Of a stretch of 64,000 nucleotides of DNA, positions 39,731 to 53,346 are shown piece after piece. The DNA is from Roseivivax jejudonensis (GTDB lineage: Bacteria; Pseudomonadota; Alphaproteobacteria; Rhodobacterales; Rhodobacteraceae): assembly GCF_900172265.1 (NCBI RefSeq), contig NZ_FWFK01000005.1, forward strand, positions 310,001-374,000, written 5' to 3'. A program made the translations under genes and the position numbers. Under the pieces are notes generated by a model. The model had not been told where the DNA came from and did not search any database. It was given only the letters and a program-made list of their open reading frames with translations. Positions within the stretch are counted from its first letter, which is position 1; each line of letters starts with the position of its first letter.

Positions 39731-40813
39731 TCAGAGCGTGACAACTTGCCCTGTTTCGGCCGCACGCTGTGCGGCAAGGCCCATCGCGACGGCCTTCGCG
39801 CCGTCGGCCAGCGTCACCTCGACGTCGCCCGCGCCCTGCAGCACGCGCAGGAACCGCTGATGCTGGTAGAAGGTGGAGCCGTTGTGATCGCCCGCCTCCA
39901 GCAGATCCGGGTCCACCGGCACGTCGAGCGCCTGTTCGCCCTTGGGGTTGCGCGGGCTCAGGATGACCTGCGGCACCGGTGCGGGACCGAGCGCCTCGGG
40001 CCAGAACCGCGTGGGGCCAGGCACCAACGCCTCGATCTTGCCGGCCGGGCCCATCGCGCTCAGGTGCTCCTGGTAGCGGGCGCCCTCGGCGAACATGCAC
40101 AGTTCCAGCATCGCGCGCTGGCCGCCGTCGAAATCCACGATGACGAAGGCATTGTCCCAGATGTCGGGCTGGCGCCCGTCGTACTCCTCGGCGCGGTGGT
40201 TCACGTCGGCGCCGCCAGAAGCCGACACGCGCACCGGCTCGGCGCGCAGGATCAGGCGCATCAGATCGAAGAAGTGGCAGCATTTCTCGACGAGCGTGCC
40301 GCCTGACGTGGCGTTGAACCGGTTCCAGGCGCCGACCTTGTCGAGAAACGGAAAGCGGTGTTCGCGCAAGCTCAGCATGCGGATGCCGCCGGTGGCGGCG
40401 TCCGCGCGGTCGACCATCATCGCGATCGGTGGCATGTAGCGGTATTCCATCGCCACCCAGACCGGCGCCGGGTAGTTGCGAGCCAGGCGTGCGACCCTCT
40501 CGGCCTGCTCCGATGTGGTGAACAGTGGCTTTTCCACCATCATCGGAAGCGGCCGACGCGCCGCGATCGCCTCCATCTGATCGACATGCACGTGGTTGGG
40601 GGATGCGATCAGCAGGCAATCGAGCGCCGACTGGTCCAGAACCGCTTCGACGGAGTCGACGAATATGGCCTCCGGGGCGAGGGCGCGGGCGGCCTCGGCC
40701 ATCACCGGGTCGGGTTCGTAGATCGCGGCGACGCGCGCGTCGCCAAGAAGGCGGATGTTGCGGATGTGCTCCTGGCCCATCATGCCCGCGCCGATGATGC
40801 CGTAGTTGATCAT
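39731..40813 (-). CDS. Gfo/Idh/MocA-family oxidoreductase, candidate NAD-dependent sulfoquinovosidase
   Basis: A 360-residue NAD(P)-binding protein. The N-terminal Rossmann motif is YGIIGAGMMGQEH, followed by the family signature EKP (MVEKPLF), and the C-terminal domain has GGTLVEKCCHFFDLM. It is divergent from a desulfonating monooxygenase operon. NAD-dependent sulfoquinovosidases (family GH188) belong to this superfamily and sit beside sulfosugar desulfonation genes, so that role is my preferred reading; a simple sugar dehydrogenase is the main alternative. The ATG at 40813 fits the Rossmann start. Confidence 0.8.
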   Translation of the reverse strand: MINYGIIGAGMMGQEHIRNIRLLGDARVAAIYEPDPVMAEAARALAPEAIFVDSVEAVLDQSALDCLLIASPNHVHVDQMEAIAARRPLPMMVEKPLFTTSEQAERVARLARNYPAPVWVAMEYRYMPPIAMMVDRADAATGGIRMLSLREHRFPFLDKVGAWNRFNATSGGTLVEKCCHFFDLMRLILRAEPVRVSASGGADVNHRAEEYDGRQPDIWDNAFVIVDFDGGQRAMLELCMFAEGARYQEHLSAMGPAGKIEALVPGPTRFWPEALGPAPVPQVILSPRNPKGEQALDVPVDPDLLEAGDHNGSTFYQHQRFLRVLQGAGDVEVTLADGAKAVAMGLAAQRAAETGQVVTL

Positions 40814-40878
40814 TCCTGCCTCGTTCGTCCCGACCGCCGTTCGTCGTGTCGTGCCGCGCCGGACACGACTCGTAAAAA

Positions 40879-40904
40879 TTGATACAGTATTGATGCACAT
40901 CAAT
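40879..40904. promoter_or_regulatory. Perfect palindrome, FNR-type or GntR-type operator in the divergent promoter
   Basis: ATTGATG-CA-CATCAAT at 40889-40904 is a perfect inverted repeat and contains TTGAT-N4-ATCAA, the FNR/CRP-family spacing. An additional TTGAT at 40879 lies 11 bases upstream. The site sits 59 bp before the monooxygenase start and 76 bp before the Gfo/Idh start, so one regulator could control both directions. No regulator gene is adjacent. Confidence 0.65.
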
Positions 40905-40962
40905 GCGGATGCTACGCAAGGGTCAAAGCGCAGCACCGAAGAGAGTCGCCAGAGGAGTCGCC

Positions 40963-42120
40963 ATGACCATCGTTCCCGTCACCTCCGCCGATCTCGATGC
41001 CAGTGAAGTGTCGTGGTTCGCGGCGCTGTGTTCGGACGATTACCAGTTCCTCGGCGTGCCCGAGGGGCGGCTGCGGTCGAGCTGGGCGCATTGCTCGGAC
41101 ATCCTGCGCGAGGCCGAGAAACAGGGCTTTCGGAACATCCTGTGCCCGTCGTCTTACCAGGTGGGGCAGGATGTCCTGTCCTTCGTCGCCGCCGGCTCGC
41201 AGGTCACGTCCGACATCAACATGCTGGCCGCGATCCGCTGCGGGGAAATGCAGCCGATCATGCTGGCCCGCACCATCGCGACCATCGATCACATGATGAA
41301 GGGCCGGCTCACGCTCAACGTCATTTCTTCGGACTTCCCCGGCGAAAAGGCCGACAGCGCCTTCCGCTATCAGCGCTCCCGCGAGGTGGTGGAAATCCTC
41401 AAGCAGGCCTGGACCCGCGACAGGATCGACTACGAGGGCGAGGTCTACAGCTTCAGCGATCTCTGGACCGATCCCGCGAAGCCCTACCAGCAGAACGGCG
41501 GACCTCTGCTCTACTTCGGCGGCTATTCTCCCCACGCGCTCGAACTCTGCGGCCAGCATTGCGATGTCTACCTGATGTGGCCCGAGCCGGAAGAGCAGCT
41601 GGCCCAGCGGATGCGCGACGTGAACGCCGTGGCCGAGCGCTACGGGCGCACGCTCGACTACGGGCTGCGCGTTCACATGATCGTGCGCGACACCGAGGCC
41701 GAGGCCCGGGAGTATGCCGACTACCTCGTGTCGAAGCTCGACGACGAACTCGGCCAGCTGATCCGGGAGCGGGCGCACGATCATGGATCGCTCGGGGTGA
41801 GCCACCAGGCGCGGGCGCGCGAACTCGCCGATACGTACGGCTACGTGGAGCCGGGGCTCTGGACGGGGATCGGGCGGGCCCGCTCGGGCTGCGGTGCGGC
41901 GCTCGTCGGCTCGGTCGACCAGGTCATGACCAAGATCGAGCGCTACCGCGAGATGGGTCTCCGCGCCTTCATATTCTCGGGGTATCCGCATCTCGACGAA
42001 TGCCGGCACTTCGGTCAGAAGGTTCTGCCGGAGCTGAAGACATGCTCGCTGCCGCACGCCTACGGACGCGTGCCGAACGAGACCCCCGCGACGCCGCTGG
42101 GAGAAGGAGAGCGCAAATGA
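40963..42120 (+). CDS. SsuD/SmoC-like FMNH2-dependent sulfonate monooxygenase
   Basis: A 385-residue luciferase-like (LLM) monooxygenase that would use reduced flavin and O2 to split a C-S bond, releasing sulfite. Recognisable blocks: WFAALCSDDYQFLGVP, LNVISSDFPGE, YFGGYSPHA and a C-terminal WTGIGRARSGCG. From memory, the first and last resemble SmoC of the Agrobacterium sulfoquinovose pathway more than SsuD; I could not align them. The ATG at 40963 has AGGAG seven bases upstream. It heads an operon with an AKR, a flavin reductase and a TRAP transporter, all co-oriented with ATGA-type or short gaps. Confidence 0.85.
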   Translation: MTIVPVTSADLDASEVSWFAALCSDDYQFLGVPEGRLRSSWAHCSDILREAEKQGFRNILCPSSYQVGQDVLSFVAAGSQVTSDINMLAAIRCGEMQPIMLARTIATIDHMMKGRLTLNVISSDFPGEKADSAFRYQRSREVVEILKQAWTRDRIDYEGEVYSFSDLWTDPAKPYQQNGGPLLYFGGYSPHALELCGQHCDVYLMWPEPEEQLAQRMRDVNAVAERYGRTLDYGLRVHMIVRDTEAEAREYADYLVSKLDDELGQLIRERAHDHGSLGVSHQARARELADTYGYVEPGLWTGIGRARSGCGAALVGSVDQVMTKIERYREMGLRAFIFSGYPHLDECRHFGQKVLPELKTCSLPHAYGRVPNETPATPLGEGERK

Positions 42121-43013
42121 CCGTGAGCCGCATTTCCGTCGCCGATGACCTCGAGCTCAGCCGCATCGTCTATGGCATGTGGCGGCTTTCGGACGACACC
42201 GACACGAGCCCCGAGCACGTCCGTGCGAAGATCGAGGCCTGCCTCGATCAGGGCATCACCACCATGGATCAGGCCGACATCTACGGCGGCTACGAGGCCG
42301 AGGAGGTGATGGGACGCGCGATGGCCGGCACCGACCTGCGCGACCGGATCGAGATCGTCACGAAATGCGACATCGTCGCGCCGGCCGGGCGCTATGCCGA
42401 CCGGCGGGTGAAGCACTACGACACTTCGGCCGCACATATCGAGGCCTCCGTCGACCACTCGCTGCGGCTCATGGGAACCGACCGGATCGACCTCCTGCTG
42501 ATCCACCGGCCCGACCCGCTCATGGATCACCACGAAACGGGCGCCGCGCTCGACGCCGCCGTGGCGGCGGGCAAGGTGCGCCATGTGGGCGTGTCGAACT
42601 TCAAGCCGCACGACTGGACGCTGCTCCAGTCGGCGATGAACGCGCCGCTCGTGACCAACCAGATCGAGCTGTCGTTGCTCGCGCACGAGGGCTTCACCAA
42701 CGGTGATGTGGCGTTTCTGCAGGAACGCGGCCTGCCGCCCATGGCGTGGTCGCCGCTCGGCGGTGGCTCGCTTTTTGCCGAAAGCTCGGCGCGCCTTCGG
42801 GCGCGGCTGGACGAGATCGCGTCGGCGCACGACGTCGACACGGCCGCCGTCGCGGTAGCCTGGCTTCTGGCGCATCCGGCGCGGATCCTTCCGGTGATGG
42901 GCACCAACACGATCGAGCGCATCCGGCAGCTCGGCGACGCCGAAAAGGTGACACTCGACCGTGAGACATGGTTCGAGCTTTATACCCTTGCGCTCGGCCA
43001 CGAGGTGCCGTGA
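42117..43013 (+). CDS. Aldo/keto reductase (SmoB-like candidate)
   Basis: A 298-residue NAD(P)H-dependent aldo/keto reductase. Catalytic tetrad positions are visible: Asp and Tyr in MDQADIYGGYE, Lys in VTKCDI, and His in LLLIHRPDPL; cofactor contacts lie in the C-terminal MGTNTIERIRQL. The ATG overlaps the monooxygenase stop (ATGA). In the sulfo-SMO pathway an AKR (SmoB) reduces 6-oxo-glucose to glucose after desulfonation, which matches the place of this gene. Other aldehydes are possible. Confidence 0.87.
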   Translation: MTVSRISVADDLELSRIVYGMWRLSDDTDTSPEHVRAKIEACLDQGITTMDQADIYGGYEAEEVMGRAMAGTDLRDRIEIVTKCDIVAPAGRYADRRVKHYDTSAAHIEASVDHSLRLMGTDRIDLLLIHRPDPLMDHHETGAALDAAVAAGKVRHVGVSNFKPHDWTLLQSAMNAPLVTNQIELSLLAHEGFTNGDVAFLQERGLPPMAWSPLGGGSLFAESSARLRARLDEIASAHDVDTAAVAVAWLLAHPARILPVMGTNTIERIRQLGDAEKVTLDRETWFELYTLALGHEVP

Positions 43014-43014
43014 C

Positions 43015-43533
43015 ATGGATGGGGCCATGGACACCGATCATCAGACCTTCACGCCCGGCCCCGAGACGCAAAGGGCTTTTCGCGATGCGCTCGGGCGGTT
43101 CGCGACGGGCGTGACGATCGTGACCACCCAGACCCAGGACGGGCCCATTGCGATCACCGCCAACAGCTTCGCGTCGCTGTCGCTCGATCCGCCGCTGGTG
43201 CTGTGGTCGCCGGCCAAGGCGTCGGCCCGGTTCAGGCCCTTCGCGGAGGCGAAGCATTTCGCGATCCACGTGCTTGCCGCCGATCAGGCGGCGCTCTGTT
43301 CCGAGGTCGCCAAGGACGCCCGCCGCTTCCGGCCCGGTGACCTGACCGAGAACGAACGCGGCGTGCCGCTGATCGAGTCGGCGCTCGCGCATTTCGAGTG
43401 CGCGCGCGACGCGGTGCACGACGGCGGCGACCACGTGATCGTGGTGGGCCGGGTAGAGCGTGTGCGCATGCGCGAGGGCGAGCCGCTGTTGTTCCTCCAG
43501 GGACAGTTCGGCGGCTTCCGGGCGCTGGGCTGA
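43015..43533 (+). CDS. Flavin reductase (SmoA-like candidate)
   Basis: A 172-residue flavin reductase-like domain protein that supplies FMNH2 to the monooxygenase. Family blocks: ALGRFATGVTIVTT, the flavin-binding TANSFASLSLDPPLVLW, and FAIHVLAADQ, with GDHVIVVGRVE near the C-terminus. The ATG at 43015 lies one base past the AKR stop; the ATG at 43027 is also possible. Two-component monooxygenases of the SsuD/SmoC kind need such a partner, so its place here supports that reading. Confidence 0.88.
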   Translation: MDGAMDTDHQTFTPGPETQRAFRDALGRFATGVTIVTTQTQDGPIAITANSFASLSLDPPLVLWSPAKASARFRPFAEAKHFAIHVLAADQAALCSEVAKDARRFRPGDLTENERGVPLIESALAHFECARDAVHDGGDHVIVVGRVERVRMREGEPLLFLQGQFGGFRALG

Positions 43534-43622
43534 AACGGACGACCCGCGGACAACGCGGGCGAGGACGCCGGACACGGCGGAGGAGCGGCGCCCCGGGCGC
43601 GGGCGCTGGATGGGAGGAAACG

Positions 43623-44210
43623 ATGGGACTCGTGCGCGGACTGCTCGTGCCGCTCGAGCTCTGGAACCGCTGGGCGCTGGCGCTCGGGCGCGGGCTGGCG
43701 CTCGTGGCGCTGGCGATCATGGTCATCGTGATCCTGGCGCAGGTGTTCTTCCGCTACGTGCTGAACAACGCGTTGCCGTGGCCGGACGAGGCGGCGCGCT
43801 TCCTGATGCTGTGGATGACCGGTCTCGCCGCGCCGACGGCCTTCCGCCGCGGCGGGTTCGTCGCCATCGACACCGTGCAGCGCCTGATGCCGCGCCGCGT
43901 GGCGGACGTCCTCGTTCTCGTGCTCCTGGCGCTGTCTCTCTGCGTCCTGGCGGTCGGGATCCAGCTCGGCTGGAATCACGTCAATTCCGGCTGGCTCTTC
44001 AACTCGTCCTCGCTGCGCGTGCCGCTCGACCTCGTGGGCGGCGAGACCGTGCGCGTGAAGCTCGCCTGGATGTACATGTCGGTCTGGATCGGCATGGTGC
44101 TCCTGACGGTGGTCGCCGTGGAGCTGATCCTGCGCCAGATCGTTCGGATCGGCGGCGAGGCCGACACGCTCTCGCCCCTCGCGCCGGGCGACCTTCCGGA
44201 GGCCGAATAG
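43623..44210 (+). CDS. TRAP transporter small membrane subunit (DctQ)
   Basis: A 195-residue protein with four hydrophobic segments (about 20-40, 52-70, 95-115, 140-165) and the DctQ pattern QVFFRYVLNNALPWPDEAARFLMLWM. It forms the membrane part with DctM. The ATG at 43623 follows GGGAGGAAACG. Its stop is directly followed by the dctM start, so the subunits are translated together. Confidence 0.9.
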   Translation: MGLVRGLLVPLELWNRWALALGRGLALVALAIMVIVILAQVFFRYVLNNALPWPDEAARFLMLWMTGLAAPTAFRRGGFVAIDTVQRLMPRRVADVLVLVLLALSLCVLAVGIQLGWNHVNSGWLFNSSSLRVPLDLVGGETVRVKLAWMYMSVWIGMVLLTVVAVELILRQIVRIGGEADTLSPLAPGDLPEAE

Positions 44211-45686
44211 ATGCTGGTCTGGTTCCTGCCGGTCTTTCTCGTGCTCCTGATCGTCGGTCTGCCGGTCTTCTTCGCGCTGCTTTTCGCGCCTGGCGCGCTG
44301 CTGTGGCTTAACGGGCAGGAGCGCGATCTCGCGCTTCTCTACCGCAACCTCTACAACGGCATGGACAGCTTCCCGCTGATGGCGTTGCCGTTTTTCCTAC
44401 TCGCCGGCGAGATCATGAACCGCGGCGGCATCACCGAGCGGCTCGTGTCGTTCGCGCAGGCGTTCATGGGCCACCTGCGTGGCGGGCTCGCGCAGGTCAA
44501 TATCCTGTCCTCGATCCTCTTCGCCGGCCTGTCGGGCTCGGCGGTGGCCGACACCTCGGCGCTGGGGTCGACGCTGATCCCGGCGATGGAGAAACAGGGC
44601 TACACACGGCGCTTCGCCGCGGCGATCACCGCCGCGTCCTCGGTGATCGGGCCGATCATCCCGCCGTCGGGGATCATGATCATCTACGCCTACGTCATGG
44701 GCCAATCGGTCGCGGCGCTGTTCCTCGCCGGGATCGTGCCCGGGCTGCTCGTCGGCGTCGGGCTGATGCTGACGGTCCGCGCGCTCGCCGACCGGTACGA
44801 CCTGCCCAAAGCCGAACGCATCGTCGAGCGCGACGCGACCATTGCACCCGTCGAATACTGGGTCAGCTTCGCGCTGCTGCGCCTCAACGTCGCCGGCGTC
44901 CTCTACATGCTCAGCTGGCTCCTGCCGGCAGGCTGGGGCGAGGGCGGCCTGGCGGTCTATCTGGGCCTGCTGGTGCCGGCGCATTTCGCGCTGGTATGGT
45001 ATCGCGGCCGGGTCAGCCGGGATTTCCGCATCGTCTGCAAGAAGGCCGTGGCGCCGCTCCAGACACCGATCATCATTCTCGGCGGGATCCTCATCGGCGT
45101 CTTCACCCCGACCGAGGCCGCGGCGATCGCGGTGGCCTATGCGCTGATCGTGTCGTTCGGCGTGCTGCGGGTGATGCGCGTCGCGGACCTCGCCGACGTT
45201 TTGCGGCGCTCGGCGATCGCCTCGGCGACGGTTTTGCTGCTCGTCGGCGCGGCCGTCAGCTTCAAGACCGTGGTGTCGCTGTCCCACGCGCCCGAGATCA
45301 TGGCCGACTTCATCCTGTCGTTGTCCGAGAACCCGCTGATCCTGCTGTTCCTGATCAACGTGCTGCTGTTCATCGTGGGCATGTTCCTCGACGCGGGGCC
45401 GGCGATCATCATCCTCGGGCCGATCCTCGGGCCGGTCTTCACCGGGCTCGGCGTCGATCCGGTGCATTTCGCCATCATCATGAGCGTGAACCTGACCGTC
45501 GGGCTGGCGACGCCGCCGATGGGCCTGGTGCTCTTCGTCGCCTCGTCGGTGTCGGGCGAACGGGTCGAGACGATCTCGAAGGCGATCCTGCCGTTTCTCG
45601 CGGTCGAAGTGCTGGTGATCTTTCTGATCACCTATTTCCCCGCGATTTCCATGACGATCCCGCGGCTCGCGGGCTTCGCGAACTGA
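44211..45686 (+). CDS. TRAP transporter large membrane subunit (DctM)
   Basis: A 491-residue membrane transporter with roughly twelve or more hydrophobic segments; conserved blocks include FFLLAGEIMNRGGI, GLSGSAVADTSALGS, IGPIIPPSG and VNLTVGLATPPMG. It couples Na+ to substrate uptake. It is ~65 residues longer than usual (about 425); the extra sequence is near residues 205-270 (PVEYWVSFALLRLNVAGV and on) and looks like two added helices. ATG directly after the dctQ stop. Confidence 0.92.
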   Translation: MLVWFLPVFLVLLIVGLPVFFALLFAPGALLWLNGQERDLALLYRNLYNGMDSFPLMALPFFLLAGEIMNRGGITERLVSFAQAFMGHLRGGLAQVNILSSILFAGLSGSAVADTSALGSTLIPAMEKQGYTRRFAAAITAASSVIGPIIPPSGIMIIYAYVMGQSVAALFLAGIVPGLLVGVGLMLTVRALADRYDLPKAERIVERDATIAPVEYWVSFALLRLNVAGVLYMLSWLLPAGWGEGGLAVYLGLLVPAHFALVWYRGRVSRDFRIVCKKAVAPLQTPIIILGGILIGVFTPTEAAAIAVAYALIVSFGVLRVMRVADLADVLRRSAIASATVLLLVGAAVSFKTVVSLSHAPEIMADFILSLSENPLILLFLINVLLFIVGMFLDAGPAIIILGPILGPVFTGLGVDPVHFAIIMSVNLTVGLATPPMGLVLFVASSVSGERVETISKAILPFLAVEVLVIFLITYFPAISMTIPRLAGFAN

Positions 45687-45711
45687 GCTCAGCAGACAGG
45701 GAGGCCAACAC

Positions 45712-46773
45712 ATGCTGACAACGACCCTCAAGGCCCTCGCGGCGGCCGGCATCCTCGCCGGTACCGCGACGGCCGCGGCGGCGCAGGAGTACACGATCCG
45801 CGCGACCGCGAATTCGAACGAACAGGACGAGGATTACGACGGCCTGATCGTGTTCAAGAACTTCGTCGAGCAGGCGTCGAACGGCGCGATCGAGGTGGAG
45901 CTCTTCATCGGCACGCAGCTGTGCTCGAACGGCGCCGAGTGCCTGCAGGGCGTCGCCGACGGCTCGATCGACGTGTTCGTCACCACCTCCGGCGGGGCCG
46001 CGGGCATCTTCCCCTACGTGCAGGTGTTCGACCTGCCCTATCTGATGCGTTCGGACCGCGTGGCCGAGGCGGTGCTGACCGACACCGACTTCACGCGCAC
46101 GCTGCGTGATCTCGCGCTCGAGTCCTCGGGCGACGCGATCCGGATCATGACCATCGGCAACACCGGCGGGTGGCGCAACTTCGCCAACACGCAGAAGACC
46201 GTCGCCACGCCGGCGGATCTCGAGGGCATGAAGATGCGCACGGTCGTCGCCGACCTGCCGCAGGAGCTGGTGAAGGTGCTCGGCGCCTCGCCGACGCCGA
46301 TCCCGTGGCCCGAGCTCTTCACCTCGCTGCAGACCGGGGTGGTCGACGGCACCAAGAACGGCATCACCGACATCATGAACATGAAGTTCCCCGATGCCGG
46401 CTTGCAGTACCTGACGCTGGACGGGCACGCCTACATGGCGGCCATCTGGGTGATGAACAACGAGAAGTTCATGTCGATGCCCGAGGACATGCGCCGGGTC
46501 GTGGTCAACGGCTTCGCCGAGCTGCAGCAGGCGACCTTTGCCTCGCCCAAGCGCAAGTCGATCTCGGCCTACGAGGAGTTCGCGGCCGCCGGTGGCGAGG
46601 TCTATGTGCCGACGCCGGAGGAAAAGCAGGCTTTCCAGGACGCGGTGCAGCCCGTCTACCAGTGGTTCAGCGAGAACGTCGACCAGGGTGACGAGGTACT
46701 GCAGGCGCTGCGCGACGCCGTCGCGCAGGTCGAGGAAGAGATCGACGCCGACATCGCGGCGGATCTCGAGTAG
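45712..46773 (+). CDS. TRAP transporter substrate-binding protein (DctP)
   Basis: A 353-residue periplasmic binding protein with a signal peptide cleaved near AAAAQE. It follows dctM by 25 bp and shows the DctP pattern: GGWRNFANTQK, the substrate-contact Arg region LEGMKMRTVV and VVDGTKNGITDIM. It captures the ligand for DctQM. The family mostly binds carboxylates, but sulfonated sugars and acids are also possible ligands; the operon context favours a sulfonate. A strong GC hairpin follows at 46780-46810. Confidence 0.9.
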   Translation: MLTTTLKALAAAGILAGTATAAAAQEYTIRATANSNEQDEDYDGLIVFKNFVEQASNGAIEVELFIGTQLCSNGAECLQGVADGSIDVFVTTSGGAAGIFPYVQVFDLPYLMRSDRVAEAVLTDTDFTRTLRDLALESSGDAIRIMTIGNTGGWRNFANTQKTVATPADLEGMKMRTVVADLPQELVKVLGASPTPIPWPELFTSLQTGVVDGTKNGITDIMNMKFPDAGLQYLTLDGHAYMAAIWVMNNEKFMSMPEDMRRVVVNGFAELQQATFASPKRKSISAYEEFAAAGGEVYVPTPEEKQAFQDAVQPVYQWFSENVDQGDEVLQALRDAVAQVEEEIDADIAADLE

Positions 46774-46779
46774 GACGCG

Positions 46780-46810
46780 CGGCCCCGCGCCGACACACGG
46801 CGCGGGGCCG
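46780..46810 (+). terminator. GC hairpin after the TRAP operon
   Basis: CGGCCCCGCGCCG and CGGCGCGGGGCCG form a 13-bp stem with a five-base loop. No T-run follows, so it may stabilise the mRNA end or act as a weak terminator. Confidence 0.65.
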
Positions 46811-46861
46811 TCCAGGCGGCGCCGGCCCCCCGCGGCCCGGCGTCCGCGCCGGCGGCCCGTG

Positions 46862-46897
46862 CGGGAGCCTCCGGCGGGGGTTTATCGGCAAGATGAA
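46862..46897 (+). repeat. Dispersed intergenic repeat, diverged copy 4
   Basis: CGGGAGCCTCCGGCGGGGGTTT followed by GCAAGATGAAG matches the general Rhodobacterales form of the element (hairpin, G-rich step, T-rich step, AAGATGAAG), though not the GCGAGGGG subtype of copies 1-3. It lies between dctP and the YeiH-family gene. Confidence 0.6.
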
Positions 46898-46962
46898 GCG
46901 CGGATCGAGCGCGCCGTCCCGGCGGCATGCGCGTCTCGTCCGCGCGCATGGAGTGGACGGCG

Positions 46963-47970
46963 ATGCGAGGCGCCTTTCGGCCGGCGGTGCTGAAATCGGA
47001 AGCCGACCGGGCCTTTCCTGGGCTGGCGGTGGCGGGGTGTGTCGCGGTGACCGCGCAGTTCCTCGCCGAGCATTACGGGGCTCCGGCGATGCTTATGGCG
47101 ATCCTGCTCGGGATCGCGCTGCATTTCCTGTCCGAGGAAGGGCGCGCGGCGCCCGGGATCGACATCGCGGCGCGGCACGTGCTTCGGGTCGGGGTCGCGC
47201 TCCTCGGTGTGAGGATCTCGGCGGAGCTTGTGCTCGATCTCGGCGCCGGCGTGGTGCTCCTGACCGTGGCCGGGGTTGCGGCCACGATCGGTATCGCGCA
47301 ACTTGCCGCGCCGCTCTTCGGGCGCGGGCGGCGCTTCGCCTTCCTGACCGGCGGCTCGGTGGCGATCTGCGGCGCCTCGGCGGCCATGGCCATCGCCGCG
47401 ATCCTGCCGCGCACCGACCGCTCCGAGCAGGACCTGGTCTTTACCGTCGTCGGTGTCACCGTCCTGTCGACCGTCGCGATGATCCTCTACCCGATCCTGG
47501 CGGGCGCGGTCGGGTTCGATCCGGTGGTGACCGGGGTCTTCCTCGGCGGAACGATTCACGACGTGGCGCAGGTCGTCGGCGCCGGCTATTCCGTGTCGGA
47601 CGGCGCGGGCGACGCGGCGACGCTGGTCAAGCTGATCCGGGTCAGCCTGCTGGCGCCCGTCGTCCTGATCGCCGCCCTTGTCCTGCGGGCGCAGGGGGCC
47701 GGTGGTGCCCGGCCGCCGCTGTTGCCTGGCTTCGTGCTGGGCTTCCTCGTGCTGGCGGCGGCCAATTCCGCCGGGATCGTGCCCGAGCCCGCCCGCGAGC
47801 TGGCCAACGCGGTGTCGCGCTGGGCGCTGCTGACCGCGATCGCGGCGGTCGGCATGAAGACCTCGATCCCCAACCTCCTGAAGGTCGGGCGCACCGCGAT
47901 CCTGATGCTGGTGGGCGAGACCCTGTTCCTCGCCCTGTTCGTGCTCGCCGGCGCCTTGCTGCTGCTCTGA
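46963..47970 (+). CDS. YeiH-family membrane protein (putative sulfate/sulfite exporter)
   Basis: A 335-residue inner-membrane protein with about ten hydrophobic segments and the YeiH/UPF0324 pattern: LLGVRISAELVLDLG, TGGSVAICGASAAMAI, FLGGTIHDVAQVVGAG and AAVGMKTSIPNLLKVG. The family is named a putative sulfate exporter without firm proof. Downstream of a desulfonation operon it would be well placed to expel sulfite or sulfate; that is inference. The ATG at 46963 has GGAG nine bases upstream; ATGs at 46927 and 46948 are alternatives. Confidence 0.85.
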   Translation: MRGAFRPAVLKSEADRAFPGLAVAGCVAVTAQFLAEHYGAPAMLMAILLGIALHFLSEEGRAAPGIDIAARHVLRVGVALLGVRISAELVLDLGAGVVLLTVAGVAATIGIAQLAAPLFGRGRRFAFLTGGSVAICGASAAMAIAAILPRTDRSEQDLVFTVVGVTVLSTVAMILYPILAGAVGFDPVVTGVFLGGTIHDVAQVVGAGYSVSDGAGDAATLVKLIRVSLLAPVVLIAALVLRAQGAGGARPPLLPGFVLGFLVLAAANSAGIVPEPARELANAVSRWALLTAIAAVGMKTSIPNLLKVGRTAILMLVGETLFLALFVLAGALLLL

Positions 47971-48052: not shown

Positions 48053-49210
48053 ATGGATTCGGTCACGATCCTGATCGGCACGACGAAGGGCGCCTTCCGC
48101 CTCGATGGCGGCGGCCCGGGCGGGCGCGGCGACTGGACGCTGCGTGGCCCGTTCTGCGACGGCTGGGCCATCAACCACGTGGCCGCCGACCCGACGACGG
48201 GAACGCTCTGGGCCGGCGGCGGCAGCGGCTTTTCGGGTGCCGGCGTTTGGCGCTCGGAGGATCGCGGCGAGAGCTGGACGCTCGCGAAGCTCGCAGATGG
48301 CGAGTTCGACGCTTGGGTGCGCGCGGATCCCGACCTCGCCGCGACGCTGGGGATTGCGCCGGGCGATCCCGCACCGTTCTCGGGCACGATCGAGGCGGTG
48401 TGGTCCCTGCACGCCGCCGACGGGCTCCTCTTCGCCGGTGCGAAGCCGGCGCAGCTCTTGCGGAGCGCCGATGGCGGTCGCAGCTGGACGCTGGTCGACA
48501 GCCTTGCCGGCTATCCGGGGCGCGACGCCTGGAACCCGGGCGCGGCGGGCCTGACGCTGCACACGATCGTGGGCGCGCCGGGCGCGCCGGAAAAGCTCTG
48601 GCTCGGCATCTCGGCCGCCGGCGTCTTCGCCAGCGAGGACGGCGGCGAGAGCTGGGAGCCACGCACGCGCCGGTCGAACGCGATGCCGGCCCCGGCGCAT
48701 ACCGCCGGCGGAGACGGCAGCCACGTCGGCAGCTGCGTACACAACATGGTGCGCGCGCCGGGCGCGCGCGACGTGCTCTACCAGCAGAACCACCACGGCG
48801 TCTTCCGCTCGCGCGACGGCGGACGCAACTGGGACGACATCACCGCCGGCCTGCCCTCGACCTTCGGCTTTCCGGTCGCGGTGCACCCGCGCGATCCGGA
48901 CACGCTTTGGGTCTTGCCGCTCAACGGGGACACGGAGGGCCGCTATCCGCCCGGCGCGGCCGCGGCGGTCTGGCGCTCGCGCGACGGCGGCGAGCGCTGG
49001 GAGGCGCAGCGCGACGGGCTTCCGGGGCGCGACTGCTTTTTCACCGTGCTGAGGCAGGCGATGGCGACCGATACGCTTGATCCGGCGGGGGTCTATTTCG
49101 GCACCAATACAGGGTCGGTCTTTGCCTCGGATGACGAGGGGGCGCGCTGGTCCGAGATCGCGCGCCACCTGCCGACGATCCTCTGCGTGGAGACGGCGGC
49201 CCACGCCTGA
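48053..49210 (+). CDS. BNR/Asp-box repeat beta-propeller protein
   Basis: A 385-residue protein with six Asp-box (S-x-D-x-G-x-x-W) repeats, such as SEDRGESW, SADGGRSW, SEDGGESW, SRDGGRNW, SRDGGERW and SDDEGARW, spaced along a predicted six-bladed sialidase/VPS10-type propeller. There is no signal peptide, and sialidase catalytic residues are not evident, so it is probably a cytoplasmic binding or hydrolase-like protein of unknown role. It lies between the YeiH gene and the phn locus and has no clear partner. Confidence 0.82.
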   Translation: MDSVTILIGTTKGAFRLDGGGPGGRGDWTLRGPFCDGWAINHVAADPTTGTLWAGGGSGFSGAGVWRSEDRGESWTLAKLADGEFDAWVRADPDLAATLGIAPGDPAPFSGTIEAVWSLHAADGLLFAGAKPAQLLRSADGGRSWTLVDSLAGYPGRDAWNPGAAGLTLHTIVGAPGAPEKLWLGISAAGVFASEDGGESWEPRTRRSNAMPAPAHTAGGDGSHVGSCVHNMVRAPGARDVLYQQNHHGVFRSRDGGRNWDDITAGLPSTFGFPVAVHPRDPDTLWVLPLNGDTEGRYPPGAAAAVWRSRDGGERWEAQRDGLPGRDCFFTVLRQAMATDTLDPAGVYFGTNTGSVFASDDEGARWSEIARHLPTILCVETAAHA

Positions 49211-49256: not shown

Positions 49257-49303
49257 CGGTTGCCGGACGCGCGCATATGCAGCCCCAGCATTGTGGGGGA
49301 CGC

Positions 49304-50128
49304 ATGCTCCGGATCGAGAGCCTGACCAAGCGCTTCGGCGCCAATACCGCCGTGGACGCCGCCAGCTTTACGGTCGACGCGCCGAGGATGATCGGAATCA
49401 TCGGCGCCTCGGGCGCCGGCAAGTCGACGATGCTGCGGATGATCAGCCGGCTGACCGACGCAAGCGAGGGGCGCATCCTGTTCGACGGGCGCGACGTGCT
49501 GCAGCTTCGGGGCCGCGCGAAGCGGGCATGGCAGTCCGATTGCGCGATGATCTTCCAGCAGTTCAACCTCGTTCCGCGGCTCGACGTGGTGTCGAACGTG
49601 CTCCACGGGACGCTGGGCCAGCGATCGACCCTCGCGACGATGTTCAACCTGTTTCCGCGAGAGGACATCCACCGCGCCATCGACATCCTCGAGCGTCTGG
49701 GCATCGCCGAGCATGCGGCCAAGCGCGCCGAGGCGCTGTCGGGCGGCCAGCAGCAGCGCGTGGCGATCGCCCGGGCGCTGATGCAGGAGCCGAAGATGAT
49801 CCTCGCCGACGAGCCGATCGCGTCTCTGGACCCGATGAATGCGCAGACCGTGATGGAGGCGCTTCGGCGCATCCACGAGGAGGACGGCCGCATGGTGATC
49901 GCCAACCTCCACACGCTCGATACCGCGCGCCGCTACTGCGACCGGGTCATCGGCATGCGGCTGGGACGGATCGTCTTCGACGGCACGCCGGCGCAACTGA
50001 CCACTGGCGCGGCCCGCGACATCTACGGCGCAGGCGCGGACTTCTCCGAAGATGCCACGTCGACCGAGATCCGTGACCGCGACCTCTATGCCGAGGCCGC
50101 GCTGCGCGACGCCGAGGCGACCGTCTGA
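49304..50128 (+). CDS. phnC: Phosphonate ABC transporter ATPase PhnC
   Basis: A 274-residue ABC ATPase with Walker [10 protein letters not shown]-loop [14 protein letters not shown], signature LSGGQQQR and Walker [14 protein letters not shown]; the [14 protein letters not shown] block is typical of PhnC. It energises uptake through PhnE1/E2 from PhnD. The ATG at 49304 follows a GGGGGA leader; the ATG at 49277 is an alternative. First gene of the transport half of the phn locus. Confidence 0.94.
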
Positions 50129-50189
50129 GATTTTACCGCTTCCACCAGACCGGACCCGCGACAAGGGTCGGCAACCAACGGAGAGTACC

Positions 50190-51086
50190 ATGAAGACACT
50201 GATCGCTCTGGCCCTGACCACCACCGCGCTGGCCGCGCCGGTCGCCGCGCAGGAAATCGAGGAATTCAACATCGGCCTCCTGGGCGGCGAGAACGCGCAG
50301 GACCGTCTCGCGTCGAACCAGTGCCTCGCGGACTACGCCACCGAGGCGCTCGGCGTTCCGGTCAAGCTGTTCGCGCCCGCCGACTACAACGGCGTGATGC
50401 AGGGCCTTCTGGGCGGCACCATCGACATGGCGTGGCTCGGCGCGTCGTCCTATGCCGGGGTCTACGTGCAGGATCCCGAGGCGGTCGAGCCCGTGCTCGT
50501 GAAGACCAACCTCGACGGCTCGTACTCCTATCATTCGATCGGCTTTGCCCGGACGGACTCGGGCATCGGCAGCCTGCAGGACGCCGAGGGCAAGGTCTTC
50601 GGCTTCGGCGACCCGAACTCGACCTCGGGCTACCTGATCCCGCAGGTGGAGATCCCGCAGGAGATCGGTGCCGACATGGAAGAGTTCTTCGGTGACGTGC
50701 GCTTCACCGGCGGTCACGAGCAGACCATCGTCGCGGTCGCAAATGGCGACATCGACGCCGGCGTGACCTGGGCGGACGGGCTCGGCGCCTGGGAAGACGG
50801 CTACAATTCCGGCGCGCTGCGCAAGGCGGCCGATGCCGGCATCGTCGACATGAACGCGATCCAGGAGATCTGGAAGTCGAAGCCGATCCCCGAAGGCCCG
50901 GTCGTGCTGCGCAAGGCGCTGCCGGACGACGTGAAGCAGACCATGGTGGACCTCGTGCAGAACCTGCACGAAACCGATCCCGATTGCGCCTACGGCGTCG
51001 CGGCGGGTGAAACCGCGGGCTTCACCCCGATCACGCACGACGCCTACGAGACCATCATCGAGGTCCGCAAGGCCGAGTCGAGCTGA
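50190..51086 (+). CDS. phnD: Phosphonate-binding periplasmic protein PhnD
   Basis: A 298-residue solute-binding protein; the signal peptide ends near PVAAQE. The phosphonate-binding loops are recognisable: GLLGGTIDMAWLGASSYA and the Ser/Thr-rich GDPNSTSGYLIPQ that holds the phosphonate oxygens. It follows phnC by ~60 bp and is followed by a strong hairpin at 51103-51135, which would set higher mRNA levels for phnD than for the permeases. Confidence 0.95.
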   Translation: MKTLIALALTTTALAAPVAAQEIEEFNIGLLGGENAQDRLASNQCLADYATEALGVPVKLFAPADYNGVMQGLLGGTIDMAWLGASSYAGVYVQDPEAVEPVLVKTNLDGSYSYHSIGFARTDSGIGSLQDAEGKVFGFGDPNSTSGYLIPQVEIPQEIGADMEEFFGDVRFTGGHEQTIVAVANGDIDAGVTWADGLGAWEDGYNSGALRKAADAGIVDMNAIQEIWKSKPIPEGPVVLRKALPDDVKQTMVDLVQNLHETDPDCAYGVAAGETAGFTPITHDAYETIIEVRKAESS

Positions 51087-51102
51087 TCGCGACCTGACCC
51101 AG

Positions 51103-51135
51103 GGCGGGCCCCGGTTGCGGGGCCCGCCTTCGTTT
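51103..51135 (+). terminator. Intercistronic hairpin after phnD (partial terminator)
   Basis: GGCGGGCCCC / GGGGCCCGCC, a perfect 10-bp stem with a six-base loop, then TTCGTTT. It lies inside the phnCDE operon, so it is more likely an attenuator or mRNA-stability element than a full stop. Confidence 0.75.
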
Positions 51136-51148
51136 GCCCGAGGACGTC

Positions 51149-52024
51149 ATGGCCGACCTGACCGCCCGCGACATCGACCGCGCCGGAGACAGCCGCAGCG
51201 CCTACCTCGCGCTCGTGCGGCGGCGGCAGACGTATTCGTTCCTGCTGCTCATCGTCTTCGTCGCACTGATGGTGTCGGGTTTCCGCATCGCCAACGACCG
51301 GAATGCCGGCGGGTTCGTCGACGGATTACCGCAGATCCTCGACTTCCCCGCCGACGTCGTGTCCGAGGCATGGCGCAACGCCGCCGAGCTTCCGGGCCAT
51401 TTCCTCGCGTTTCTTCCGGCACTCATCGAGACGGTGAACATTGCCGCGGTCGCGACGCTGGTGGGTGCCATCGCGGCGATCGTGCTGGCGCTCCTGTCGA
51501 CGCGCGGGCTCGCACGGTGGCCGCGGGCGATACCGCTCTTCCGCCGGATCATGGATATCATGCGCGCGATCCCGGACATCGTGATCGCGCTTATCCTGAT
51601 CTTCCTGATGGGGGTTGGCCCGATGCCCGCCGTCATCGCCATCGCGATCCACACCGCCGGTGCGCTCGGCAAGCTGTTTTCCGAGGTGGCCGAAAACGCC
51701 GACCTCAAACCGGTCGAGGGGCTGCAATCGGTCGGCGCGCGGTGGCTGCAGCAGATGTATCTGGGCGTCCTGCCGCAGATCGCGCCGAACCTGCTCAGCT
51801 ATGCGCTCCTGCGGTTCGAGATCAACATTCGGGCCTCCGCGATCCTCGGCTTCGTCGGGGCGGGCGGCATCGGCTACGAGCTCAAGAACGCGATCACCTG
51901 GGGCCAGGGGCAATTCGCCGAAAGCGCGGCGATCTTCATCCTGCTGTTCGCGACCATCGTTTTCTTCGACCAGCTCTCGAGTGCCGCCCGTCACCGGTTG
52001 GCGCACGGAAAGGGGGCGCTGTGA
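51149..52024 (+). CDS. phnE: Phosphonate ABC transporter permease PhnE1
   Basis: A 291-residue membrane permease with about six helices and the EAA loop (VGARWLQQMYLGVLPQ) that docks PhnC. Family blocks: RIMDIMRAIPDIVIALI and ILGFVGAGGIGYEL. It starts at ATG 51149, with GAGGAC upstream, and ends overlapping the start of the second permease (GTGA), so both are made together. Confidence 0.93.
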   Translation: MADLTARDIDRAGDSRSAYLALVRRRQTYSFLLLIVFVALMVSGFRIANDRNAGGFVDGLPQILDFPADVVSEAWRNAAELPGHFLAFLPALIETVNIAAVATLVGAIAAIVLALLSTRGLARWPRAIPLFRRIMDIMRAIPDIVIALILIFLMGVGPMPAVIAIAIHTAGALGKLFSEVAENADLKPVEGLQSVGARWLQQMYLGVLPQIAPNLLSYALLRFEINIRASAILGFVGAGGIGYELKNAITWGQGQFAESAAIFILLFATIVFFDQLSSAARHRLAHGKGAL

Positions 52025-53346
52025 CCGACGCGACCGCATCCCTCGCGGCCACGGATCCGCGCGCGCGCGCCGAGGCCGGCATCCGGCGGCAGCGCCGCAT
52101 CGCGCTGGCGATCCCGGCGGCGATCCTGCTCTATCTCATCTATATCTTCTTTGCCTTCGACCTGCCGGGCCTCGCCAGTCGGCTCCGGGTCGACAACATG
52201 GTCACGCTCGTTTCCGACACCTGGAGCTACAAGACCCACGTCACGCGCGACAATCGCTCGGGCGACGTCGAGGTCGCGATCGAGGGCGAACGGCAGGGCA
52301 CCTATGCCGAGGGCGCGGCCCCGGACTGGGTCACGCGCGACGGCGACGTGACCGAGATCCGCCTCGCGCCCGATCACCTGGCGGTCTTCGACGGCGGGCA
52401 GGTGCGTTACGACGTGCCCGGATACGGGCTCGTGACGGCCGAGCATGATGGCCGCGACATCGCGCTGGACACGCCCGACGGCACGGTGCCGGACTTCATC
52501 TCGGCCTCCGGTGCCCGCGTCGACATCACGACCCATGCCGGCCGGGTGTCGCTCACCCGCAACCGCAACGAAGTGTTCCGCTATTTCGCGGGGTGGGAGC
52601 TGTTCTTCTTCACGCTGAGCTCGCCGTATCATGGCCACGCGGCGGGCGAGATCCTGTTCGGGGACCGGATCGACCCCGATCGGTCCAACATCGTCGGCGC
52701 GTGGCAGGATTTCTGGGGCAACCCGATGTGGCGGCACGCCGATGTGGCCTGGGCGCTGGGCGAGACGATCCTGATGGCGTTCCTTGGCACGATGGGCGCG
52801 GCGCTCGTGGCGTTGCCGCTCGGCTTTGCGGCCGCCCGCAATTTTGCCCCTGTCCTCGCGATCCGGTTCGCGGTCCGGCGCGTGTTCGACTTCGCGCGCG
52901 GCGTCGATGCGCTGATCTGGACCATCCTGCTGTCGCGCGCCTTTGGGCCGGGGCCGCTGACGGGAACGCTGGCGATCCTGTTGACCGATACCGGCACCTT
53001 CGGCAAGCTCTTCTCCGAAACGCTCGAGAACGTCGATACCCGCCAGATCGAGGGCGTGCGTTCGACGGGAGCGAAGCCGCTTCAGCGCTACCGCTTCGGC
53101 GTCATCCCGCAGATCACGCCGGTCCTGCTCAGCCAGGTCCTGTATCTGCTGGAATCGAACACGCGGTCCGCGACGATCATCGGGGCGATCACCGGCGGCG
53201 GCATCGGCCTTTTGCTGACGCAGGCGATCATCACGCAGAAGGACTGGGAAGAGGTCAGCTACTACATCGTGCTTATCGTCGTCATGGTGATCCTGATGGA
53301 CACAGTGTCGGGCTGGCTTCGCAACAAGCTGATCCGCGGCGACTGA
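52021..53346 (+). CDS. phnE: Phosphonate ABC transporter permease PhnE2, with extra N-terminal domain
   Basis: A 441-residue permease: one N-terminal helix (about 28-46), then ~150 residues of beta-rich, probably periplasmic sequence not present in PhnE1, then the permease core with FDFARGVDALIWTILL, the EAA loop and ITGGGIGLLL. Starts at a GTG overlapping the phnE1 stop. The pairing of a short and a long PhnE is common in alphaproteobacteria. Confidence 0.92.
   Translation: MTDATASLAATDPRARAEAGIRRQRRIALAIPAAILLYLIYIFFAFDLPGLASRLRVDNMVTLVSDTWSYKTHVTRDNRSGDVEVAIEGERQGTYAEGAAPDWVTRDGDVTEIRLAPDHLAVFDGGQVRYDVPGYGLVTAEHDGRDIALDTPDGTVPDFISASGARVDITTHAGRVSLTRNRNEVFRYFAGWELFFFTLSSPYHGHAAGEILFGDRIDPDRSNIVGAWQDFWGNPMWRHADVAWALGETILMAFLGTMGAALVALPLGFAAARNFAPVLAIRFAVRRVFDFARGVDALIWTILLSRAFGPGPLTGTLAILLTDTGTFGKLFSETLENVDTRQIEGVRSTGAKPLQRYRFGVIPQITPVLLSQVLYLLESNTRSATIIGAITGGGIGLLLTQAIITQKDWEEVSYYIVLIVVMVILMDTVSGWLRNKLIRGD

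Follow-up and report, generated by a model that had tools for sequence, protein, structure and literature searches.

A probable sulfoquinovose monooxygenase operon of Roseivivax jejudonensis with a GH188-type sulfoquinovosidase and a TRAP transporter as candidate importer

Introduction

Does an eight-gene cluster in the genome of Roseivivax jejudonensis serve the use of sulfoquinovose (SQ), and is its tripartite ATP-independent periplasmic (TRAP) transporter the way in for this sulfo-sugar, which is common in plants and algae? The cluster lies at 39731-47970 of the window, the whole stretch of 64,000 nucleotides analysed here (G000:C17:310001-374000, on contig NZ_FWFK01000005.1), which belongs to a genome of 4.31 Mb. 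The question reaches beyond one strain, as SQ uptake helps to decide which marine organisms eat SQ.

In Agrobacterium tumefaciens, the SQ monooxygenase (sulfo-SMO) pathway is encoded with SmoA, SmoB and SmoC, an ATP-binding cassette (ABC) importer and a sulfoquinovosidase of glycoside hydrolase family GH31. The same layout is given in passages of PMC9594981, SQ uptake is tied to ABC transporters in passages of the literature, and part of PMC13372026 reports that sulfo-SMO is prevalent among rhizobia and Roseobacters. For the sulfo-SMO clusters of Roseobacters, passages of PMC10755693 call sulfoquinovosidases of family GH188 "near-universal" and the distribution of GH188 and GH31 complementary.

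The initial annotation had proposed that the present cluster is a distinct variant of this pathway. Its functional part, namely SMO enzymes, an NAD-dependent sulfoquinovosidase and TRAP uptake, withstood the checks proposed together with it, whereas the novelty of the combination, as put, did not. With high confidence we regard the cluster as a sulfo-SMO operon of Roseivivax for SQ utilisation, with TRAP uptake, GH188 release of SQ, conversion by SmoC and SmoB, and probable export by a YeiH-type protein.

Enzymes of the operon

All eight genes were recovered as intact open reading frames (ORFs), in the families and at the places that had been proposed for them. The Gfo/Idh gene is divergent on the minus strand, the other seven are on the plus strand, and neighbouring operon genes overlap or are spaced by at most ~150 bases. 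The Pfam families agreed and were, in gene order, GFO_IDH_MocA, Bac_luciferase, Aldo_ket_red, Flavin_Reduct, DctQ, DctM, DctP and Cons_hypoth698.

The luciferase-like monooxygenase (LLM) encoded at 40963..42120 (+) is of the SmoC type, a predicted FMN-dependent sulfoquinovose monooxygenase. It showed 78% identity over its full length to the solved chains 7olf and 7oh2, which we take to be the SmoC enzymes of the sulfo-SMO work, although the depositors named them "Methanesulfonate sulfonatase" and "Alkanesulfonate monooxygenase", respectively. The bit scores were 708 and 705 for these two chains but fell to 193 for 7jv3, the alkanesulfonate monooxygenase ranked next, and to 35 for a chain of the nitrilotriacetate (NTA) monooxygenase type, so that the gene is, as first suggested, SmoC-type rather than NTA- or EDTA-type. 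The following aldo-keto reductase (AKR; 42117..43013, +) was 67.5% identical to 7bbz (437 bits, the next AKR chain reaching 234). The depositor name of 7bbz is "Aryl-alcohol dehydrogenase"; we take it to be the glucose-forming SmoB. A homologue of this gene occurred in 79 of 80 related loci (described below), and its assignment as a SmoB-type enzyme that would turn 6-oxo-glucose into glucose was likewise upheld. The flavin reductase (43015..43533, +) matched PF01613 and scored 209 bits with the FerA model, under the cut-off of 260; this family match and its linkage in 67 of the 80 loci, rather than an alignment to SmoA, suggest that it fills the SmoA role. These results place the enzymes in the sulfo-SMO pathway, and the corresponding activities are predicted for this strain from sequence.

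The Gfo/Idh protein (39731..40813, -; start chosen at MINYG) was assigned as a GH188-type, SqgA-like, NAD-dependent sulfoquinovosidase by phmmer matches, identity and residues. Its three best solved matches were 8zn9, deposited as "Oxidoreductase, putative" (E 2.9e-158), and the GH188 enzymes ArSqgA (8qc3, residues 2-358, E 2.1e-112) and FlSqgA (8qc2, residues 2-359, E 6e-112), and the homology to characterised SqgA spans both domains. It was 51.4% identical to ArSqgA and 65% identical to 8zn9 over the first 306 residues. The bit scores with 8zn9 and the two GH188 chains were 377-530, compared with 65 for inositol 2-dehydrogenase. Passages of PMC10755693 list the structures 8QC2, 8QC3, 8QC5, 8QC6 and 8QC8 as SqgA and name Lys107, Tyr136, Arg166, Leu170, Lys172, Glu189, His193 and His321 of ArSqgA, as well as Glu163, among the catalytic and sulfonate-binding residues. 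All eight residues that were mapped are kept in the Roseivivax protein (K95, Y124, R153, L157, K159, E176, H180 and H310 in the same order). By the present numbering, position 163 of the chain is Val, and the adjacent Glu164 is kept as E151. The protein thus falls within GH188, not outside it.

GH31 (PF01055) gave 0 matches in the whole genome, in a search that was positive in 6 of 14 control genomes. Two related Rhizobium loci without GH188 (L070 and L090) carry a 669-residue gene that adjoins the regulator, and the L090 copy is a GH31 gene, which fits the complementary distribution reported in the passages of PMC10755693.

Distribution of the cluster

We scanned GTDB species genomes and retrieved 80 loci, the best-scoring of at least 576 relatives. 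This sample is biased to close relatives: its loci resemble the query at 78% or more, and ABC-type clusters as in Agrobacterium are therefore under-represented. The ORF clustering used for the loci may in addition miss or merge genes. SmoB was present in 79 loci, GH188 in 75, the flavin reductase in 67, and the TRAP genes dctM and dctP in 47. In every locus that had both (47/47), the TRAP pair lay no more than 4 kb downstream of SmoC. TRAP presence requires 13 changes on the SmoC tree. Within Roseivivax, SmoC was found in 9 of 9 genomes, and the TRAP binding protein was equally spaced from it in 8 of them.

These counts dispose of the notion that only this genome has the combination. The TRAP-bearing layout, far from singular, is the commonest importer type among the fetched relatives, and GH188 in sulfo-SMO clusters, a part of what the initial annotation had taken for a distinct variant, is already published for Roseobacters in passages of PMC10755693.

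The set also occurs on plasmids. A plasmid of Rhizobium sp. SL42 carries all of it, including a "putative sulfate exporter", and on a plasmid of Roseivivax sp. THAF197b the set is complete except for the exporter; in both, a GntR gene lies between GH188 and SmoC. Homologues of the TRAP binding protein were seen on 12 plasmid or megaplasmid records. In 10 of these the identity was at least 65% (Roseivivax, Ruegeria, Qingshengfaniella, Salipiger, Paracoccus, Roseicitreum and Rhizobium), and SL42 and THAF197b, the two of these 10 that were inspected, both have the SMO set. Plasmids are a possible route of spread.

Evidence on the TRAP importer and its cargo

The transporter is encoded by a small permease gene (DctQ, 43623..44210, +; PF04290), a large permease gene (DctM, 44211..45686, +; PF06808, with TIGR00786 above its cut-off) and a solute-binding protein gene (DctP, 45712..46773, +; PF03480), the last being the candidate binder of SQ or SQ glycosides. 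The three components and a conserved arginine mark it as a DctP-type TRAP system. Within the cluster we found no sugar ABC importer, its place being held by the three TRAP genes; no search was aimed at a SmoF-like protein in the rest of the genome.

To assess linkage in a sample not chosen by SmoC, we drew one genome per genus from the family, 149 in all; in many of them the best 13 DctP candidates were scored. SmoC was present in 61 genomes, a DctP orthologue in 54 (66-79% identity, the window's own apart), and both in 40; the two genes were adjacent in 37 of these 40 and on separate contigs in 3. Their co-occurrence was significant in a Fisher test that ignores the relatedness of the genomes (odds ratio 10, p 6e-10).

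The DctP orthologue was also found in 14 genomes that lack SmoC. GH188 lay within the fetched stretch in 11 of these, and nine of the 11 had an SQ-isomerase-like gene too. These nine clusters (in the series L104-L117, e.g. L106, L110 and L111) resemble the sulfo-Embden-Meyerhof-Parnas (sulfo-EMP) type, and GH188 and the isomerase-like gene were present in 9/9. Their other genes were a LacD-type aldolase (8 clusters), a DeoR-type regulator (8), a hydroxyacid dehydrogenase (7), a PfkB kinase (6) and an aldehyde dehydrogenase (4), labels that come from scanning one representative of each sequence cluster. The isomerase label rests on one representative (L115; NF048012, 257.6 bits, under the cut-off of 700) and on sequence clustering of the nine loci. 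The sample of EMP-type clusters is that of the 14 genomes, and such clusters without this TRAP lie outside it. In a quick DctP tree (64 proteins) the EMP label needs 5 changes, all forced by starred branches, against 1 in a quick GH188 tree (87 proteins), where a single starred branch sets the EMP-linked proteins apart.

Some of the SmoC-less TRAP loci hold other remnants or combinations of the gene set. In L109, from a genome with no SmoC or SmoB, the TRAP genes stand together with GH188 and a GntR regulator. SmoB, the flavin reductase and the TRAP genes are kept in L113 and L114, one of which has GH188; their genomes gave no SmoC at E 1e-30, as if the monooxygenase had been lost or replaced. 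In L105, the flavin reductase is the sole SQ-type gene beside the TRAP genes. A gene of the di-haem peroxidase/MauG family (L091:15574-17355, L110:7357-9201) was also seen in 20 of the 47 TRAP-type SMO loci (21 of 80 overall) and in 9 of the 14 SmoC-less TRAP loci. The 7 loci that carry YeiH downstream all lack it.

The same importer thus accompanies two routes that have the expected substrate in common but differ in their core enzymes. This is the best evidence for its cargo. Linkage in two pathway types supports the TRAP genes well as SQ-linked, and the substrate would be SQ or its glycoside. GH188 is presumably cytoplasmic, because of its need for NAD+, and in that case the importer has to bring in the glycoside, either together with free SQ or instead of it.

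The DctP sequence offers a candidate site for the anionic group. R155, R176 and N216 were invariant in an alignment of 45 proteins, comprising that of the window and those of 44 of the 47 TRAP-type loci (L042, L052 and L080 were omitted as near copies), and they were present in all 64 proteins of the DctP tree. By their spacing of 21 and 40 residues they match Arg156, Arg177 and Asn217, which contact the sulfonate in the isethionate-binding protein IseP according to passages of PMC11668362. The AlphaFold model of DctP had a mean pLDDT of 81.9, with low values at residues 1-22 and 207-223. Its first fold match was IseP (8t9t, 24% identity), and many DctP proteins scored nearly as high.

Exporter, regulator and flanking genes

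The last gene of the operon (46927..47970, +) encodes a YeiH-type transporter, a candidate sulfite or sulfate exporter, with PF03601 above its cut-off. A YeiH gene lay downstream of the cluster in 7 of the 80 loci (three Roseivivax, Roseibium, Pannonibacter and two Rhizobium) and near it in 6 of the 9 Roseivivax genomes. Its place behind the gene of a sulfite-making enzyme makes sulfite or sulfate the probable cargo for export.

Genes of one sequence cluster, whose representative is a GntR-UTRA regulator lying between GH188 and SmoC, were found in at least 56 of the 80 relatives. The count is a lower bound, as L015 is not included although its genome has the regulator beside the operon. In the window, this gap (40814-40962) contains no GntR-UTRA gene. 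The regulator stands beside the operon in 4 Roseivivax genomes; in 4 others, including the present one, a single homologue of 50-52% identity is located elsewhere, on another contig in 3 of them and 80 kb away on the same contig in one (G008). The homologue of this genome lies at G000:C19:181269-181958 (also given as L118:8264-8968), and its product is 54% identical to the Rhizobium smo regulator, compared with 57% for an operon-adjacent one of Roseivivax.

Upstream of smoC, the gap holds a conserved operator- or promoter-like element (40877..40920, +), which reads AATTGATAYANNATTGATNYA, mostly followed by TGCTACGCAAG, with the core ATTGATACAGTATTGATGCA at 40878-40897. The element anchor was present in 71 of 81 upstream regions (the window and the 80 loci), and in 66 of these it lay 70-86 bp before the smoC start. 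With one mismatch allowed, the core pattern occurred exactly once per genome in 8 of the 9 Roseivivax genomes, always before smoC; the reversed control gave 0 hits, and the chance expectation in the window was 0.00. The genome without it, Roseivivax marinus (G002, L018), also has no regulator match and no GH188 in the locus. A sigma-70 scan for strict consensus upstream of smoC found no promoter, and by eye a -35/-10-like pair can be read at 40890-40895 and 40913-40918 with a spacer of 17. GntR-UTRA probably acts on the element before smoC, and the pattern fits a regulator that moved while its operator stayed.

Beyond the operon lie a BNR-repeat gene (48053-49210) and a phosphonate-type ABC set at 49277-53346, whose ATPase and permease genes were read by eye and whose PhnD scored 319 bits (NCBIfam cut-off 261). 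The BNR-repeat gene and the phosphonate-type transporter genes after it matched no SQ-related family and were excluded from the system.

Discussion

On the genes observed, their identity to characterised enzymes, the active-site residues, the linkage and the upstream element, the following route can be proposed. TRAP DctQ-DctM-DctP would import SQ and/or glycosides such as sulfoquinovosyl glycerol, from which GH188 would free SQ by transient C3 oxidation with bound NAD+. SmoC, using FMNH2 from the neighbouring flavin reductase, would then cleave the C-S bond; the products would be sulfite and 6-oxo-glucose, and SmoB would reduce the latter to glucose. Sulfite or sulfate would leave through the YeiH-type protein, and the GntR-UTRA regulator, which here is no neighbour of the operon, would probably act on the conserved element before smoC.

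Broad Pfam names alone fit many functions, and the LLM and Gfo/Idh proteins could accordingly be general members of their superfamilies, an NTA-type monooxygenase and a sugar dehydrogenase without any link to SQ. We rejected an NTA/EDTA-type monooxygenase and a general Gfo/Idh dehydrogenase on the bit scores (708 for SmoC against 35 for the NTA-type chain; 377-530 for 8zn9 and GH188 against 65 for inositol 2-dehydrogenase) and on the GH188 residues, and we consider this explanation close to negligible. A cluster that serves some different sulfonated compound than SQ, be it a sulfo-sugar such as sulfofucose or a sulfonate such as a short alkanesulfonate, is somewhat less remote, since the range of SmoC is predicted from its sequence and the depositors of 7olf and 7oh2 named methane- and alkanesulfonate enzymes. 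Yet the adjoining GH188 keeps all mapped SQ-contacting residues and the AKR is 67.5% identical to 7bbz, the glucose-forming SmoB as we take it, so that a substrate other than SQ is very improbable.

SQ itself has no carboxylate. If the enzymes act on SQ, the TRAP transporter could still carry other cargo, either a carboxylate, e.g. sulfolactate, or a sugar acid. DctP-type proteins are described in passages of PMC4646407 as favouring carboxylates and rarely holding sulfonate or phosphate, and several observations weigh against SQ as the cargo or against parts of the proposed route. Two DctP homologues of 45-51% identity stand apart from the SQ genes searched for, and the SmoC-less TRAP locus L116 shows no SQ gene at all. 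The R155/R176/N216 triad is also present in two DctP homologues that do not lie near SQ genes, which makes it the mark of an anion site rather than of SQ specificity. Among the 80 loci, 33 are without TRAP. Genes for a sugar-type ABC importer were found within the fetched stretch of 12 of these and neither type in the other 21; four of the 33 (L023, L038, L062 and L094) have a right flank of less than 5 kb. In the family sample, 21 of the 61 SmoC genomes lack a DctP orthologue. In Roseivivax sediminis (L017), the TRAP genes are missing and GH188, SmoC, SmoB, the flavin reductase and YeiH are kept, while in R. marinus (L018) SmoC, SmoB, the flavin reductase and TRAP are kept and the locus has no GH188. 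In such SmoC loci without TRAP, uptake must also go by another route. For the exporter, the score with TIGR00698 was 115.7 bits, below the cut-off of 232.6.

Different cargo is nevertheless unlikely. SmoC and DctP are adjacent in 37 of the 40 genomes that have both, the same DctP switches repeatedly between SMO and EMP-type clusters that share GH188 and the expected substrate, and a TRAP protein of the same family, IseP, holds a sulfonate on the same arginines in passages of PMC11668362. It appears likely that the transporter is dedicated to one kind of substrate, a sulfo-sugar (SQ or sulfoquinovosyl glycerol). On this reading it is widespread in Rhodobacterales and also occurs in some Hyphomicrobiales, the module has been exchanged between sulfo-SMO and sulfo-EMP-type clusters with GH188 staying with the pathway, and in one Roseivivax subgroup the GntR-UTRA regulator moved and the operator was kept. 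If this is true, the TRAP protein would offer a pathway-independent marker gene for marine SQ use. It would also allow the binding of a sulfo-sugar by a TRAP protein to be tested, and would illustrate how an uptake module can move between catabolic routes.

The part that remains possibly new is the TRAP importer itself. In the texts read and among the papers listed we found no link between a TRAP transporter and SQ; PMC10507020 and PMC6386719, which concern taurine use, mention both DctP and, once each, sulfoquinovose. In its enzymes the operon is ordinary for Roseobacters, and the move of the regulator is a small extra.

Compared with the sulfo-SMO system of Agrobacterium tumefaciens, the present operon has SmoC and SmoB of high identity and an adjacent flavin reductase, and the same chemistry is expected. 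It differs in its sulfoquinovosidase (GH188, not GH31), in its importer (TRAP, not ABC) and in the YeiH-type exporter. No solved chain matched the binding protein of L055, an ABC-type locus, at E 1e-20, so that the ABC sets of the related loci are not callable as SmoF-type. By its content of GH188 and sulfo-SMO genes, the operon is one of the Roseobacter GH188 clusters of PMC10755693; the main text of that paper names no transporter, while its cluster figures and supplement, beyond that scope, may draw TRAP. With IseP of the isethionate TRAP system, which is its first fold match, DctP shares the family and counterparts of the two arginines and the asparagine that hold the sulfonate in IseP. 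It differs from IseP at 24% identity, the ligand there being isethionate, a C2 sulfonate, and the main text of PMC11668362 being silent on sulfoquinovose.

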